The notes under the pieces were generated by a model. That model did not search any database, was not told the origin of the DNA, and saw only the letters and a program-made list of their open reading frames with translations. 32,569 bases of DNA, taken from NCBI GenBank assembly GCA_903918375.1, contig CAIXED010000046.1:1-32569 (forward strand), given 5' to 3'. Every line of letters begins with the position of its first letter. The stretch's first letter is position 1. Of the stretch, positions 10,006-24,239 are shown one piece after another. A program made the position numbers and the translations under genes. Source of the stretch: an uncultured Pseudomonadota bacterium. GTDB lineage: Bacteria; Pseudomonadota; Gammaproteobacteria; Methylococcales; Methylomonadaceae.

Positions 10006-10829
10006 TGACGGTTTTGACACCTGAATTTAATTCAAACACGGTTCAGAATAACCGTTTATTGGCGGCAATTTTAATTGCCGCCGCCGTGCATTGTTTATTG
10101 CTATTGATTCGATTCGCACCGCCCGAAGCGCCAAAAAGCAATCAATCGATAGACATAAGCCTATCCTACAGCGCCAGCAAACAAGCACCCAAGCAAGCAC
10201 AATTTCTCGGCTCAGAAAACCAACTAGCCAGTAGCGATAACACGCCTCAACCGCGAGCTAATCCAAAACCAGAAAGCTCAGCTTCACAGCAAAAACCATC
10301 AACCAGTAACAAAAAAATCATCAGCCAACCCGAATCGGCTGCGCAAATTACTAAATCACCTGACAGCGCCAGCATCGAAAATCGCCCCCTACTGTCAGCC
10401 GATATATTGCAGCAACAAATCAGCCAAATAGGCGAACGCTATCGGGTCAGTCAGCCAAGCGCCCAAGACAGCAAAATCAAATTTGCCAACGCGGTCAGCA
10501 CCCACAAATACCTTGCCGCCCAATATGTCAAAGACTGGGAAGACAAAGTCGAACGCACTGGTAACTTAAACTACCCCGAAGCCGCTCGTAAACTCGGTGA
10601 GTCGCAAACCTTAACCATGGATGTCGGCATCAATCCCGACGGCAGCATTTACAGTATGCGGATTGTAAAATCCTCAGGTAACCCCGATTTAGATGAAGCC
10701 GCCAAACGGATTGTCAAAATGAGCGCACCGTTTGCCGAACTACCCGCAGAACTACTGCAAGAAGTGAATGTCTTGGTCATTACCCGCGTTTGGAAATTTT
10801 CCGACGAAACCGGCATGACCACCCGCTAG
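10002..10829 (+). CDS. TonB-family protein (energy transducer-like)
   Basis: This 275-residue protein has a single N-terminal membrane segment (about residues 19-39), a long proline/serine/glutamine-rich periplasmic linker, and a C-terminal TonB domain containing YPEAARKLGESQTLTMDVGI, SSGNPDLDEAAKRIV and a final ITRVWKF. TonB-type proteins couple the ExbB/ExbD proton motor to outer-membrane receptors. No exbBD lies here. Its position between gshB and yqgE matches the pseudomonad tonB3-type gene, implicated there in surface motility and pilus assembly rather than iron uptake. The ATG overlaps the gshB stop (ATGATGA), so 10002 or 10005 could be the first codon. Confidence 0.85.
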   Translation: MMTVLTPEFNSNTVQNNRLLAAILIAAAVHCLLLLIRFAPPEAPKSNQSIDISLSYSASKQAPKQAQFLGSENQLASSDNTPQPRANPKPESSASQQKPSTSNKKIISQPESAAQITKSPDSASIENRPLLSADILQQQISQIGERYRVSQPSAQDSKIKFANAVSTHKYLAAQYVKDWEDKVERTGNLNYPEAARKLGESQTLTMDVGINPDGSIYSMRIVKSSGNPDLDEAAKRIVKMSAPFAELPAELLQEVNVLVITRVWKFSDETGMTTR

Positions 10830-15673: not shown

Positions 15674-16645
15674 ATGACCGCAGCGCAAACCGCCTTACAA
15701 GCGCTTAAATCACAGATTAACACCCAGATTATTGGTCAAGACGTTCTAGTTGAACGGATGTTGATCGCTTTATTAGCCGATGGCCATTTATTAGTTGAAG
15801 GCGCACCGGGCTTGGCCAAAACCCGCGCCATCAATGTGCTCAGCCAAGGCATAGACGCCGACTTTCACCGCGTCCAATTCACCCCCGATTTACTGCCCGC
15901 TGATTTGACTGGCACCGATATTTACCGCCCCCAACAAGGCAGTTTTGAATTTCAAAAAGGCCCGTTGTTTCATAATTTAATTTTGGCCGACGAAATCAAC
16001 CGCGCCCCAGCCAAAGTGCAAGCTGCCTTATTGGAAGCGATGGCAGAACGGCAAATCACGGTGGGCAAAGCCAGCTATCCCCTGCCCGCCTTATTTATGG
16101 TGATGGCAACCCAAAACCCGATTGAGCAAGAAGGCACTTATCCCTTGCCAGAAGCACAGCTCGACCGGTTTTTGCTACACGTCAAAATCGACTATCCCAA
16201 TGCCGCTCACGAACAAGCGATTTTGCATTTAGCCCGCGCCGAAGCCAAAGGCCAATTGCAAACCAAACCGCAAACCATCAATAAAATCAGCAGCGAAACC
16301 ATTTTTGCAGCGCGTCAACAAGTCCTAGACTTGTACATGGCCGAGCCGCTAGAACAATATTTATTACAAATCATCCTAGCGACACGCAACCCAGCGGTTT
16401 ATGGCGAAGATTTAGGCAAATGGATTCAATACGGCGCCAGCCCTCGCGCCAGCATCGCCCTTGATCGCTGCGCCCGAGCCAAAGCTTGGCTGCAACAACG
16501 TGATTTTGTTGATCCGAGTGATATTCAAGACTTGGCTTACGATGTGCTGCGTCACCGTTTAATCCTGTCTTACGAAGCCGAAGCGGAAGGCATTACCAGC
16601 GATGAAGTGATTAAACAATTAATTGCCCGAATTGCGGTGCCTTAA
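15674..16645 (+). CDS. MoxR-family AAA+ ATPase
   Basis: This 323-residue cytoplasmic ATPase has Walker A GAPGLAKT at residues 43-50, Walker B ILADEINRAP, and the sensor stretch MATQNPIEQEGTYPLPEAQLDRF, diagnostic of MoxR. MoxR proteins act as chaperones for assembling envelope or metalloenzyme complexes with DUF58 and VWA-domain partners. An AGGAA ribosome-binding site precedes the ATG. DUF58 follows 5 bp downstream as expected, but the further members of the usual cluster (VWA, TPR, BatD) are not in the window. The name originated from methanol dehydrogenase maturation; here the specific target is unknown. Confidence 0.93.
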   Translation: MTAAQTALQALKSQINTQIIGQDVLVERMLIALLADGHLLVEGAPGLAKTRAINVLSQGIDADFHRVQFTPDLLPADLTGTDIYRPQQGSFEFQKGPLFHNLILADEINRAPAKVQAALLEAMAERQITVGKASYPLPALFMVMATQNPIEQEGTYPLPEAQLDRFLLHVKIDYPNAAHEQAILHLARAEAKGQLQTKPQTINKISSETIFAARQQVLDLYMAEPLEQYLLQIILATRNPAVYGEDLGKWIQYGASPRASIALDRCARAKAWLQQRDFVDPSDIQDLAYDVLRHRLILSYEAEAEGITSDEVIKQLIARIAVP

Positions 16646-16650
16646 ACGCC

Positions 16651-17562
16651 ATGACAGCCAAAGCCCATGCCGCCAATGACCGCTTGGCGATCAGCTTAAA
16701 AACCCTGCTCGGCCTCGCTCAACCAGCCACCGGCTTACAGCGCCAGCGTCGGCAAATTAACGCCCAGCAATCCGGTCAATATTTATCGCCACAAAAAGGT
16801 CGCGGCATGACTTTTGACGAAACCCGTTTGTACCAAGCCGGTGATGACGTCCGCCGCATCGACTGGCGCGTCACCGCCCGCACCGACAAACCGCACAGCA
16901 AAGTCTTTAAAGAAGAACGCGAAACACCGTTATTTATTGCTGTCGATTACCGCGCCACCATGCAATTTGCCACTCGCGGCGTGTTCAAATCGGTACAAGC
17001 AGCAAAACTAGCCGGAGTGTTAGCTTGGTCAGCCTTACAACAAGGCGACCGCGTTGGTGGACAGATTTTTAGTGAAGAAGGCTGTCAGGAACTCAAACCA
17101 CAAACCGGCAAACCGGCTTTGTTACGGTTTTTTAATGCCTTGGTCAATCCACAATTAATCGCCACCAACAGCGGTTTGGAACACAGCTTAACCCGTTTAA
17201 GACACCACGCCCGCCCCGGCAGCCAAGTGTTTATTCTAAGTGATTTCCGCGGCCTAACTGCCAATGCCGAGCAACATCTAGCGCAATTGAGTCGGCATTG
17301 TGATGTGGTTTTGATTCAGATCTTCGACCCGCTGGAAGCGCAATTACCAAACAAAGGCCGCTACCGATTTACCGACAGTTTGCGCGATTTGCTGATCGAT
17401 AGCGCTGATAAACAACGCTTGGCTGACTATCAACAACGCTTCCAACAACGGCAGGCACATTTGAAACAACTGTGTCGAAAACTGCGGATTAGCTGGTTAA
17501 GTTGTAGTACGGCTGAGGAAGTGGATGGGGTTTTGAGGGGGTTGAGGCTGCGTCAACTATAG
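16651..17562 (+). CDS. DUF58-domain protein (MoxR partner)
   Basis: The 303-residue protein carries the DUF58 hallmark GMTFDETRLYQAGDDVRRID with WRVTARTDKPHSKVFKEERE about residues 51-90, followed by a VWA-like fold (PLFIAVDYRATMQF; QVFILSDFRG). DUF58 proteins are nearly always encoded next to moxR and are thought to help in complex assembly. It starts 5 bp after moxR. The C-terminus looks complete. Immediately downstream, the sequence character changes to the islet of RT fragment and rhuM instead of a DUF4381/VWA gene. Confidence 0.9.
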   Translation: MTAKAHAANDRLAISLKTLLGLAQPATGLQRQRRQINAQQSGQYLSPQKGRGMTFDETRLYQAGDDVRRIDWRVTARTDKPHSKVFKEERETPLFIAVDYRATMQFATRGVFKSVQAAKLAGVLAWSALQQGDRVGGQIFSEEGCQELKPQTGKPALLRFFNALVNPQLIATNSGLEHSLTRLRHHARPGSQVFILSDFRGLTANAEQHLAQLSRHCDVVLIQIFDPLEAQLPNKGRYRFTDSLRDLLIDSADKQRLADYQQRFQQRQAHLKQLCRKLRISWLSCSTAEEVDGVLRGLRLRQL

Positions 17563-17603
17563 ATAAAACATGATTAAATCTAAATTACAAAGGCGGAGCG
17601 GAC

Positions 17604-17750
17604 ATGGATGAGATAAGTACAGAAAAAATACACCGCAAATCAATCATAGACCTTTCCAATACCGATGCTCTTGAGTTTCTGTTAAAAACAGAAAGCTATA
17701 GCAGTGCAGAACTACCACCCTATTTTGTTTTTGAGGGATATTCCGCATGA
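17604..17750 (+). pseudogene. 48-codon ORF resembling N-terminus of a defence-type reverse transcriptase
   Basis: A short frame from the ATG at 17604 (GGAG 5 bp upstream) encodes 48 residues containing KSIIDLSNTDALEFLLK, ESYSSAELPPYFVF and the C-terminal EGYSA. The pattern of an S-x-x-x-A-x-x-FLLKxESY segment followed by LPPYF recalls, from memory, the N-terminus of bacterial DRT/UG-type reverse transcriptases that act against phages. No RT catalytic domain (YxDD) follows: the frame stops in an ATGA overlap with the rhuM start. I read it as either a remnant left by deletion, or a real small protein coupled to rhuM. The similarity is recalled, not computed, so confidence in identity is limited; that the frame is open and well placed is directly seen. 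Confidence 0.45.
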
Positions 17751-18775
17751 CCATATCAAATTCAAACAACCTGCTAATTCGTAATTCCACCACGGAATTC
17801 CTAATTTTCACGACTCAATCCGGCGAACAAAGCCTCGAAGCTCGCTACGAAGATGAAACTGTGTGGTTGACGCAAAAACTGATGGGTGAACTGTTTAGTG
17901 TCGATGTCCGCACCATCAGTGAACACTTGAAAAACATCTATGAGGCTGAAGAACTCCAGAAAGAGCCAACTATCCGGAAATTCCGGATAGTTCAAACCGA
18001 AGGTAATCGCGAAGTAACACGCAACATTGATTTCTACAACCTCGATGCCATTATCTCGGTCGGCTACCGCATCAACTCGATCCGAGCCACACAGTTTCGC
18101 CAGTGGGCCACTAGCGTATTACGCTCATTCACGATTAAAGGATATGTGCTAGATAAAAAGCGCATAGAAAATGGCGCCTTTCTCGGTGAAGATTATTTCG
18201 AACATTTGTTATCCGAAATCCGCGAGATTCGCCTCAGCGAGCGCATGTTTTATCAAAAGATAACTGATATTTACGCGACAGCACTTGACTACAACCGCAA
18301 CGCCCCAACCACTAAACGCTTTTTCGCTAAGGTACAAAACAAATTACATTACGCTATCCACGGCCATACAGCCGCCGAGTTAATCATTAATCGCGCTGAT
18401 AGCAACAAACCACAAATGGGTCTGACTTCATGGGAAAAAGCACCGGACGGCAAAATTGTTAAGACTGATGTGGTTATCGCTAAAAACTACCTCAACAAAG
18501 TGGAACTGGAATCTTTAGGGCGTATCGTTAACGCCTATCTCGATCTCGCAGAAGACCGCGCCAATCGTAAGATTCCGATGACCATGGAAGACTGGTCAAA
18601 ACGACTAGACGCCTTTCTGGAATTCACCGATCGTGAAATTTTACGCGATGGCGGCAAGGTTTCAGCCGAACAAGCCAAAGCTTATGCTGAAAGTGAGTTT
18701 GAAAAATACCGCATCATTCAGGATCGTTTATTCGAAAACGACTTCGACCGTTTAATTAAACAGATCGAGGAATAG
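17747..18775 (+). CDS. rhuM: RhuM-family protein
   Basis: The 342-residue protein has the RhuM family pattern: a Bro/KilA-like N-terminal DNA-binding-type region with DETVWLTQKLMGELFSVDVRTISEHL (about residues 36-62), IRKFRIVQTEGNREVTRNIDFYNLDAIISVGYRI, and RATQFRQWATSVLRSF, and a helical C-terminal part. RhuM was first named in Salmonella pathogenicity island 3; it is common in genomic islands and near restriction-modification or defence loci, and its function is unknown. The start overlaps the preceding small ORF (ATGA) with GAGGGATATTCCGC before it. It is bounded downstream by the unrelated convergent wrbA. It was probably acquired horizontally. Confidence 0.85.
   Translation: MTISNSNNLLIRNSTTEFLIFTTQSGEQSLEARYEDETVWLTQKLMGELFSVDVRTISEHLKNIYEAEELQKEPTIRKFRIVQTEGNREVTRNIDFYNLDAIISVGYRINSIRATQFRQWATSVLRSFTIKGYVLDKKRIENGAFLGEDYFEHLLSEIREIRLSERMFYQKITDIYATALDYNRNAPTTKRFFAKVQNKLHYAIHGHTAAELIINRADSNKPQMGLTSWEKAPDGKIVKTDVVIAKNYLNKVELESLGRIVNAYLDLAEDRANRKIPMTMEDWSKRLDAFLEFTDREILRDGGKVSAEQAKAYAESEFEKYRIIQDRLFENDFDRLIKQIEE
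17968..17992. repeat. Perfect 25-nt palindrome inside rhuM
   Basis: AACTATCCGGAA (17968-17979) is exactly complementary to TTCCGGATAGTT (17981-17992), separated by a single A. It lies in the codons for the conserved IRKFRIVQ motif. Twelve perfect base pairs with a one-base centre is a typical operator or recombination-site geometry and would be unusual by chance in a coding region. Confidence 0.75.
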
Positions 18776-18806
18776 GTATTAACGTGAATCCTTAAAACCC
18801 AAAACC

Positions 18807-19759
<953 letters not shown>

Positions 19760-19791
19760 GGTTTACTGGCCTGTGAATCGAAACAAGCCGT

Positions 19792-19797
19792 TATAAT
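19792..19797 (+). promoter_or_regulatory. Consensus -10 box before hldE
   Basis: A perfect TATAAT stands at 19792-19797, 35 bp before the hldE start, giving a leader of roughly 28 nt. No good -35 hexamer is found at 16-18 bp, so it is only a moderate candidate. Confidence 0.35.
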
Positions 19798-19831
19798 AGC
19801 ACCCTGTTTTTACAAACCCGCGTGTAAAGCT

Positions 19832-22697: not shown

Positions 22698-24200
22698 ATG
22701 GCTAGCATCGTTATCACCACTCTCAATGCCCGTTATATTCATACGGCATTTGGCTTGCGTTATCTGTATGCCAATTTAGGCGAATTGCAGCATCAAACCG
22801 AGTTGCTGGAATTTAGTATTAATCAGCGGCCGATTGAAATTGCCGAACAGTTATTACAGCAACAAGCCAAGATTATCGGTTTTGGGGTTTATATCTGGAA
22901 CGTCGCCGAAATCAGCGCAGTGGTGGCGATTATTAAACAAGTCGCACCGCAGATTTGTATTGTTTTGGGTGGGCCAGAAGTGAGCCATCCACCGGATTTA
23001 CCGGCAGTTGCCGAGTTAGCCGATTACATTATTACCGGTAACGGTGAAATTAGTTTCCCCAAGCTATGCCAACAATGGCTGGATGCTCAAGCGCCAGCCG
23101 AGAACATCATTACCGGCGAAGCGGCGGCTTTATCGGCACTCGCTTCGCCCTACCCTTTTTACACCGACACCGACATTCGCCAGCGGATTACTTATATCGA
23201 AGCTTCGCGCGGCTGTCCGTTTAAATGTGAGTTTTGTTTATCGTCTTTGGACGCTACCGCCAAGCCGTTTCCACTGGAAGCGTTTTTACAGGAAATGGCG
23301 GTTTTGCATCAACGCGGAGCGCGGCATTTTAAATTTATCGACCGCACTTTTAATCTAAAAGTCGATACCAGCGTGGCGATTTTGGAATTTTTCCTCGCGC
23401 GGTTGAGTGATGATTTATACCTGCATTTTGAAGTGATTCCCGATCATTTGCCGGAACGTCTGAAACTAGCGATTCAGCAATTTCCTGCGGGGATGTTGCA
23501 ATTTGAGGTGGGGATACAAACTTTTGATCCTGACATTCAACAATTAATCAGCCGCAAACAAGACAACGCTAAAACTAAAGATAATTTGCGCTGGCTACGG
23601 GAATATTCGCAAGCCCATATCCACGCGGATTTAATTGTTGGTTTACCGGGCGATACGCTGAGCGGTTTTGCTGACAGTTTTAATCAATTAGTCCAGTTAA
23701 ACCCACAAGAAATCCAAGTCGGGATTTTAAAACGCTTACGCGGCGCACCGATCAACCGCCATAGCGACCATTATCAAATGCGCTATGACCCTAATCCACC
23801 GTATTCGGTACTCAGCACTCGCAACATGGATTTTGCCACCCTGCAACGCTTGAATCGCTTTGCGCGTTATTGGGATTTGATTGGTAACTCGGGGCGGTTT
23901 AGTGGCAGCCTGCCGCTGATTTTTGCTGATCAGCCTTTTGAACGGTTTTTGCAGCTCAGTGATGCGCTGTATGTTTTAGCCGGTAGCACTTGGAAAATCG
24001 CTTTGAAGCGTTTGTTTGAATTGGTGTTTGTAGCGATGACTGATACTTTGCTGATTTCAGCTGCCGATGCGGAAACGGTATTAGCGGAGGATTTTCAGCG
24101 TAGTAGTGAAAAAGGTAAGCCGACATTTTTACAAAAAACCGACAACGAATCGGACAAGGTTCGAGTCGCGAATAAGCGTCAAAGACAGCTATTAGTCTAA
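22698..24200 (+). CDS. B12-binding-domain radical SAM protein (DUF4080 type)
   Basis: The 500-residue protein has an N-terminal cobalamin-binding-like Rossmann domain (about residues 1-135, with GGPEVSHPP and a TGNGEISFPKL segment) and a radical SAM core whose iron-sulphur motif CPFKCEFC is at residues 173-180 within EASRGCPFKCEFCLSS. A C-terminal domain follows with GILKRLRGAPINRH and YSVLSTRNMDF, recalled as the DUF4080 type. Such enzymes often methylate or rearrange carbon centres, but the substrate here is unknown. It begins immediately after the ubiA stop, suggesting translational coupling. Length is normal and the domain set looks intact. Confidence 0.87.
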   Translation: MASIVITTLNARYIHTAFGLRYLYANLGELQHQTELLEFSINQRPIEIAEQLLQQQAKIIGFGVYIWNVAEISAVVAIIKQVAPQICIVLGGPEVSHPPDLPAVAELADYIITGNGEISFPKLCQQWLDAQAPAENIITGEAAALSALASPYPFYTDTDIRQRITYIEASRGCPFKCEFCLSSLDATAKPFPLEAFLQEMAVLHQRGARHFKFIDRTFNLKVDTSVAILEFFLARLSDDLYLHFEVIPDHLPERLKLAIQQFPAGMLQFEVGIQTFDPDIQQLISRKQDNAKTKDNLRWLREYSQAHIHADLIVGLPGDTLSGFADSFNQLVQLNPQEIQVGILKRLRGAPINRHSDHYQMRYDPNPPYSVLSTRNMDFATLQRLNRFARYWDLIGNSGRFSGSLPLIFADQPFERFLQLSDALYVLAGSTWKIALKRLFELVFVAMTDTLLISAADAETVLAEDFQRSSEKGKPTFLQKTDNESDKVRVANKRQRQLLV

Positions 24201-24209
24201 TTTTTTGCC

Positions 24210-24239
24210 GTTATGGATTGGCAAGATCCAATCCATAAC
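24210..24239. terminator. Perfect 12-bp hairpin between convergent genes
   Basis: GTTATGGATTGG (24210-24221) pairs perfectly with CCAATCCATAAC (24228-24239) around a 6-nt loop. It lies between the radical SAM gene (plus) and the SIMPL gene (minus). A T-run (24200-24206) precedes it on the plus strand rather than following, so it is a terminator by position with imperfect T-tracts. Confidence 0.6.

Follow-up and report, generated by a model that had tools for sequence, protein, structure and literature searches.

A short accessory islet in the genome of an uncultured Methylomonadaceae bacterium joins the beginning of an Abi-P2 type reverse transcriptase (RT) gene to an intact rhuM gene, and we consider it likely that two things together account for it, a relic islet and a RhuM protein that reads a palindrome within its own gene. 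Judging from how rhuM sequences vary across the family, the RhuM N-domain very probably binds this DNA site inside its own gene, with autoregulation as the simplest use it could have. The islet lies in a window of 32,569 nucleotides, the whole stretch of DNA that was analysed, and its features are listed in Table 1. The palindrome is a result beyond the first-pass annotation, which had covered the small open reading frame (ORF) and rhuM.

Table 1. Features of the islet, with positions in the window.
Feature	Position	Strand	Basis or remark
Accessory islet between convergent DUF58 and wrbA genes	17563..18828	.	Empty site in G001 and G003
13-residue open frame MIKSKLQRRSGHG, whose end overlaps the beginning of the RT fragment	17570..17611	+	Sequence reading, weak
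48-residue ORF, N-terminal Abi-P2 type RT fragment	17604..17750	+	Homology span 17631-17735
Codon of Tyr40, aligned with DNA-priming Tyr61 of Abi-P2	17721..17723	+	7r08 alignment
rhuM, intact	17747..18775	+	PF13310, 342 aa, under purifying selection
Codons for residues 52-59, the putative recognition helix in the N-terminal helix-turn-helix	17900..17923	+	Covariation, leave-one-out 0.901
Perfect 25-bp intragenic palindrome AACTATCCGGAAATTCCGGATAGTT, proposed RhuM binding site	17968..17992	.	Centre 17980; repeat scan
Inner half-site ATCCGG, the part predicted by the recognition helix	17972..17977 (mirror 17983-17988)	.	
wrbA 3' end, with codons that derive from the insert	18807..18828	-	G033 comparison

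The islet and its truncated reverse transcriptase gene

The 48-residue ORF and rhuM lie where the first-pass annotation had placed them, in an ATGA overlap. The islet bounds that it gave, 17563-18806, fit the interval from the DUF58 stop (17562) to the wrbA stop (18807), but the right edge lies slightly farther on, since the letters of wrbA diverge from those of the close relative G033 at about 18828, within the last wrbA codons. DUF58 and wrbA adjoin in convergent orientation with an empty gap in 2 of 36 congeners (G001 and G003), while in the window they are about 1.27 kb apart; in the remaining listed congeners they are far apart or on separate contigs, and G009 is without a wrbA match. The DUF58 end in the window is much like that of G009, which with G033 is among the nearest relatives and where sequence reading places a small histidine-rich ORF at the corresponding position. 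In G033 the ends of DUF58 and wrbA adjoin nirD/nirB-like parts (L117:1-353 and L119:3541-4089; sequence reading), so this gap may accept inserts of different kinds. Around the islet (16500-19800), nothing in Rfam reached the gathering score, and the promoters and terminators found in 17400-18950 (2 and 2) equal the numbers seen in shuffled sequence (2.1 and 2.2), one of the two terminator-like sites being the rhuM palindrome itself. Elsewhere in the window, a 30-nt inverted repeat with 12-bp arms (24210-24239) sits just after a gene ending at 24200 and is terminator-like.

The small ORF had been thought to recall the start of a defence-associated RT, and running the profile search proposed for it against RT families confirms this and allows the fragment to be named as Abi-P2 class. 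The PADLOC AbiP2 profile (PDLC03744) matches peptide residues 10-44 with its positions 3-37 of 489 (E 8.2e-9), and a custom profile of seven AbiP2-like RTs gives the peptide 33.9 bits, compared with 7.1 for the best of 20,000 shuffles; no RT match was returned from Pfam or NCBIfam. When all PDB chains were searched up to E 10, Abi-P2 itself (7r08, E 0.051) was the sole sequence listed, with its residues 31-64, including the priming Tyr61, aligned to peptide residues 10-43. The RT start on a named genome contig (L002) is 53% identical to the peptide over 34 residues. The peptide has the PxYxxF of the N-terminal fingers, whose P, Y and F are invariant in RT alignments, as well as the priming tyrosine. 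According to the accessible text of PMC9508834, the Tyr61 hydroxyl of Abi-P2 is required to prime DNA synthesis.

In contrast with Abi-P2, the 48-residue fragment is without the entire palm and helical domains. Its homology ends three or four residues past Tyr40, ahead of the RT palm, and neither a palm with its YxDD-type catalytic motif nor the helical domain is included in the genome's AbiP2 match; no second AbiP2 piece was detected in the genome at E 0.01, where profile positions 3-37 of 489 are the only ones present. The fragment stops right after its priming-type tyrosine (window 17721-17735), which is probably a coincidence, although the ORF may conceivably be an orphan priming peptide. 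The 13-residue frame that overlaps the RT start may be the remnant end of an upstream gene that has been lost, and the geometry of this overlap resembles that of DUF4391 and the RT in locus L139.

Two readings of the islet had been offered at the outset, a decayed defence locus and a functional two-gene unit of the ORF and rhuM. The ATGA coupling and plausible ribosome-binding sites (sequence reading) speak for the second, yet the peptide was found in 0/60 relatives (E 0.01), and the proposed survey of other rhuM loci for the same short ORF upstream recovered it at none of the 29 scanned, which came from the best-scoring of the 75 rhuM-bearing genomes among 369 of the class. Because the ORF does not recur in relatives or at rhuM loci, the two-gene unit is unsupported. 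Across the class, an N-terminal RT profile has strong matches in just 4 of the 369 genomes; two of these matches are full-length RTs, a third is a frame-shifted RT, and the fourth is the window. Three further matches near E 0.007 are short and are probably due to chance. Moreover, all six plasmid records that match the peptide are annotated as RNA-directed DNA polymerase, no match was found in phages, and the peptide breaks off before the palm, so that we regard a functional two-gene unit as extremely unlikely. The other reading, decay of a former defence locus, is supported. An AbiP2 RT is also split into several frames in genome G379 (L116:7165-8671), with the N-terminal piece again forming a separate frame, here of 53 residues.

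The 48-residue ORF therefore looks like a relic rather than a partner of rhuM. An Abi-P2 type RT gene would have lost everything beyond about its first 44 codons through a presumed deletion within the RT locus, and the break would join what is left to the intact rhuM gene, although the order in which parts were lost can only be conjectured from the surviving sequence. The ORF would now be at most a translated leader for rhuM, and the islet as a whole would be a relic of restriction-modification (R-M) cargo. Alternatively, the join near 17736-17746 may be chimeric in this 82-contig assembly.

Restriction-modification operons as a setting of both genes

Abi-P2-like RTs and rhuM both ride within R-M operons. 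The type III operon of L139 (3975-15559) comprises a SNF2 helicase, DUF4391, a full AbiP2 RT (E 7.3e-204), Mod, RhuM and Res, with the RT and RhuM on one strand and Mod alone between them. A complete Abi-P2-like RT also lies in a type I R-M operon in L114 (4244-15455), where it overlaps hsdS by ATGA and is followed downstream by two more genes and then hsdR (names partly by sequence reading). Among five plasmid RT loci, R-M genes lie beside the RT in three and are absent from two. Abi-P2-like RTs without R-M genes include that of L122. The genome's second rhuM gene (L113:3884-9088) is part of a type I R-M operon in the order hsdM-rhuM-Fic-further gene-hsdS and has its own palindrome, CAGTTATCCGGAATTTCCGGATAACTG; used as a DNA query, this gene gave no match in E. 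coli. On a Selenomonas plasmid, hsdS, rhuM and an R-like helicase follow one another consecutively, while R-M genes are absent around a Parabacteroides rhuM. The flanks of Mod resemble cargo slots, holding a gene with a DGQQRLTT motif in L179 (GmrSD/DUF262-like, sequence reading) and a hypothetical gene in L177.

A deletion inside such an R-M operon would yield the observed islet. That the parent was specifically an L139-like type III operon, deleted from RT codon 44 to rhuM, is a tentative reading that we find somewhat doubtful. L139 has the RT and RhuM on the same strand with only Mod to be removed between them, and the overlap upstream of its RT start is similar in geometry. However, neither a trace of Mod nor a DUF4391 tail is recognisable in the window (sequence reading), and L139 is the sole RhuM-bearing locus of the 21 RT loci checked, which include ten of 22 viral loci. 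In addition, the occurrence of Abi-P2-like RTs in the type I operon of L114 and without R-M genes in L122 leaves the particular parent operon unfixed.

An association of RhuM-like genes with R-M loci, their fusion to DOC domains and a proposed toxin role were reported in 2013 in the accessible text of PMC3710099. The R-M embedded toxin-like genes of that text resemble those described here in both respects, the placement in R-M loci and the DOC fusions, whereas neither an RT partner nor an internal site is mentioned in it.

A palindrome inside rhuM that follows a putative recognition helix

The gene downstream of the RT fragment encodes RhuM, as had been annotated: its product matches PF13310 with E 4.6e-113 and 377.1 bits compared with a cut-off of 33.7, and the match to the RhuM family (PF13310, PADLOC PDC-S05) is full-length. 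Identity to the nearest homologue, L054, is 0.82/0.90/0.46 by codon position. A biochemical function of RhuM was not found in the literature located. The N-domain has a putative helix-turn-helix or winged fold, called purely from its sequence pattern, and no relative of solved structure turned up (best chain E 0.37).

The palindrome is present in all 87 rhuM genes counted, in register in 83 and shifted by 8 nt in four. These genes were extracted by alignment from 90 loci, of which 89 had matches; 88 of the 95 matches spanned the region, and L203 was dropped for an alignment gap. Counting the ten pairs that lie 3-12 nt from the centre, 53 of the in-register genes have all of them, 24 nine, 5 eight and 1 seven, while the four shifted genes have 11-12 of 12 pairs. 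The same codons are palindromic in other rhuM genes, often with different letters. A scan of 936 centres in 39 genes singled out codon 78, with a mean of 9.28 pairs compared with 5.26 at the next best centre.

For the wobble test, the four shifted genes were left out, giving 83 genes with 69 distinct stems (the tree described below used all 83). At distances 3, 6, 9 and 12 from the centre both partners are wobble positions, and 258 of 276 such pairs match across the 69 distinct stems, compared with 75.9 expected (sd 7.1, maximum 101) from 2000 synonymous resamplings. Since the matches so far exceed those in synonymous redraws, the constraint acts on the nucleic acid, beyond the amino acids. 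When 82 distinct rows of 54 nt are aligned without gaps, 96.6% of cells are paired compared with 65.0 (sd 1.1) in shuffles, and covariation is 0.902 compared with 0.276, with slid versions of the palindrome scoring 0.05-0.20. Two of the five measures fell within the shuffle range, namely pairs changed on both sides (equalled or exceeded in 106 of 500 shuffles) and further pair types (in 497 of 500).

Such complementarity could in principle belong to a hairpin of the rhuM mRNA through which decay or translation is controlled: it is near-perfect and at a fixed place, and a stem of 10-12 bp with a small loop would fold well. However, G.U accounts for only 8 of 820 stem cells, all at two of the ten pairs; the remaining eight pairs have none, though most of them switch between A-U and G-C types. 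This rarity of G.U points to double-stranded DNA rather than RNA. An RNA hairpin would also leave unexplained why the inner letters track the recognition helix of the protein, as set out below, and we judge it very unlikely.

On a protein tree that omits the palindrome region, 156 inferred changes replace one Watson-Crick pair by another, and 27 produce a mismatch (G.T in 5 cases). Double changes outnumber single ones by 165 to 26, whereas sliding the partner by one codon gives 106 double and 193 single changes. This preponderance of double changes would suit a mutational process, such as template switching that perfects quasi-palindromes, keeping a functionless palindrome in place. Such a process does not, however, predict the coupling to residues 52-59, and the palindrome has a sharp edge, with the outer pairs at distances 11 and 12 matching in 69/69 stems. 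Furthermore, in the one control examined, the palindrome at 10061-10082 of the window, which belongs to an ordinary gene, pairing is 9/10 in the two nearest congeners and erodes to 3-8 of 10 in 16/16 more distant ones; with the gene itself, these congeners make up 19 of 30 loci (L243-L261). Maintenance by mutation alone is consequently a most improbable account, even more so than the hairpin.

The letters of the palindrome vary with one short part of the protein. Across 79 genes and 288 protein positions, the five positions that co-vary most with the inner six letters are 56, 59, 54, 55 and 58, all within VDVRTISE, the expected recognition helix; the C-domain position 268 ranks sixth, followed by 52 and 53. 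With the C-domain removed, residues 36-68 correlate with the inner letters at a partial Mantel r of 0.33 (maximum 0.09 in 300 permutations), compared with 0.09 for residues 15-35, 0.08 for 87-110 and 0.04 for 111-149. The outer four letters track residues 87-110 instead (0.32), and a wing could lie within this stretch. The nearest neighbour on residues 52-59 predicts 90.1% of inner letters in leave-one-out tests, compared with 64.2% for the C-domain, 67.3% for residues 87-110, 53.2% for residues 36-51 and 41.3% for random pairs, although related genes are not independent, so that permutation tests and leave-one-out values make the result look somewhat more certain than it is, with the held-out set described below and the wobble test least affected. 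Several tendencies of a code can be read, each with exceptions: T/S56 together with E59 goes with CGG beside the centre, N56 for the most part with AAG/GAG, K/R59 with TCC/GCA, and V54/K54/R54 mostly with AT/GT/TGT.

The rhuM genes L168:6001-7017 and L162:6001-7008 are alike save around the helix and the palindrome, as if a cassette had been swapped. Their proteins are 95% identical outside this region and their DNA agrees at 882/1008 over the whole gene, whereas beside the palindrome identity drops to 68/100 and 64/91, in a block that includes the upstream helix-turn-helix-like stretch; three palindrome pairs differ, each on both sides. From this comparison, genes seem to trade the cassette in one piece.

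Within the genome, a search allowing up to 2 mismatches placed the 19-nt palindrome core in the two rhuM genes alone, and no dispersed operator was found elsewhere at this threshold. Among the scanned loci of at least 3 kb, two (L174 and L057) have additional look-alike sites when up to 7 mismatches are allowed. The former (L174:2118-2142) is a near-copy of that locus's own rhuM palindrome, with 2 mismatches, about 4 kb upstream of rhuM and outside the listed ORFs of 60 aa or more; in the latter (L057:1265-1351), two look-alikes with 3 and 7 mismatches lie upstream of rhuM. An integron attC site, prompted by the AAC/GTT ends, was considered and set aside. A helix-coupled palindrome within genes of the RhuM family is not described in the accessible portions of PMC3710099, PMC6529018 and PMC5771137 or among the literature matches listed.

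As would be expected of a repressor with a palindromic operator, the site co-varies with the recognition helix, and palindrome letters that follow this helix are the mark of a site for a symmetric dimer of RhuM. We propose that the N-terminal, possibly winged helix-turn-helix of RhuM binds, as a dimer, the palindrome of about 25 bp in its own coding sequence, which is placed about 20 codons past the recognition helix. RhuM on its own gene would limit expression, a negative autoregulation through an internal operator or roadblock, although the direction of regulation is a guess and neither a promoter nor a second operator site is established. The regulated and putatively toxic effector, borne by R-M operons, would be either the RhuM C-domain or Fic.

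A proposed reader and its site shared with RhuM-Fic genes

Twenty genes match RhuM over the N-domain only, and these were held out of rule building. The palindrome is in register in 19 of the 20, which keep 8-10 of 10 pairs. An alignment gap led to the exclusion of the remaining gene, L238, which looks like the shifted type. The fixed-register count is preferred here, as a free-centre search in the 20 genes is weak, with resampled genes reaching 8/10 in 20% of draws. The rule trained on residues 52-59 of RhuM correctly gave 91.8% of inner letters in the 19 held-out genes, compared with a baseline of 36.5%. The Fic core motif is present in 15 of the 20, and Fic was found in all seven scanned by Pfam. 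In the accessible text of PMC6529018, RhuM-Fic/DOC fusions such as BifA have the N-domain in common with RhuM and differ in their C-terminal domain, which is Fic; the palindrome counts given here come from genes other than that of BifA.

We lean towards the view that the N-domain of RhuM and RhuM-Fic is a self-contained cassette of reader plus operator with a partly readable helix-to-DNA code, exchanged as a block like a specificity domain and allowing toxin-like genes to regulate themselves wherever they are inserted in R-M operons. Reader and site would change together in one short segment, and the module would then work in whichever operon it lands; because both share this segment, control would travel with the gene. 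Intragenic operators are known, as in lac O2, a repressor site within a coding sequence. The rhuM site is similar in lying inside a coding sequence, but it lies within that of its own reader domain and changes together with the helix across about 100 genes.

The coupling of helix and palindrome gives a concrete and cheap test of the role of the N-domain in RhuM, a 'virulence' family, and candidate binding sites for rhuM or rhuM-fic genes can be read straight from sequence. The family also offers a natural data set of reader and site pairs for learning helix-turn-helix recognition rules. Finally, the finding suggests how rhuM-type genes could reside in R-M operons while lacking dedicated control regions.
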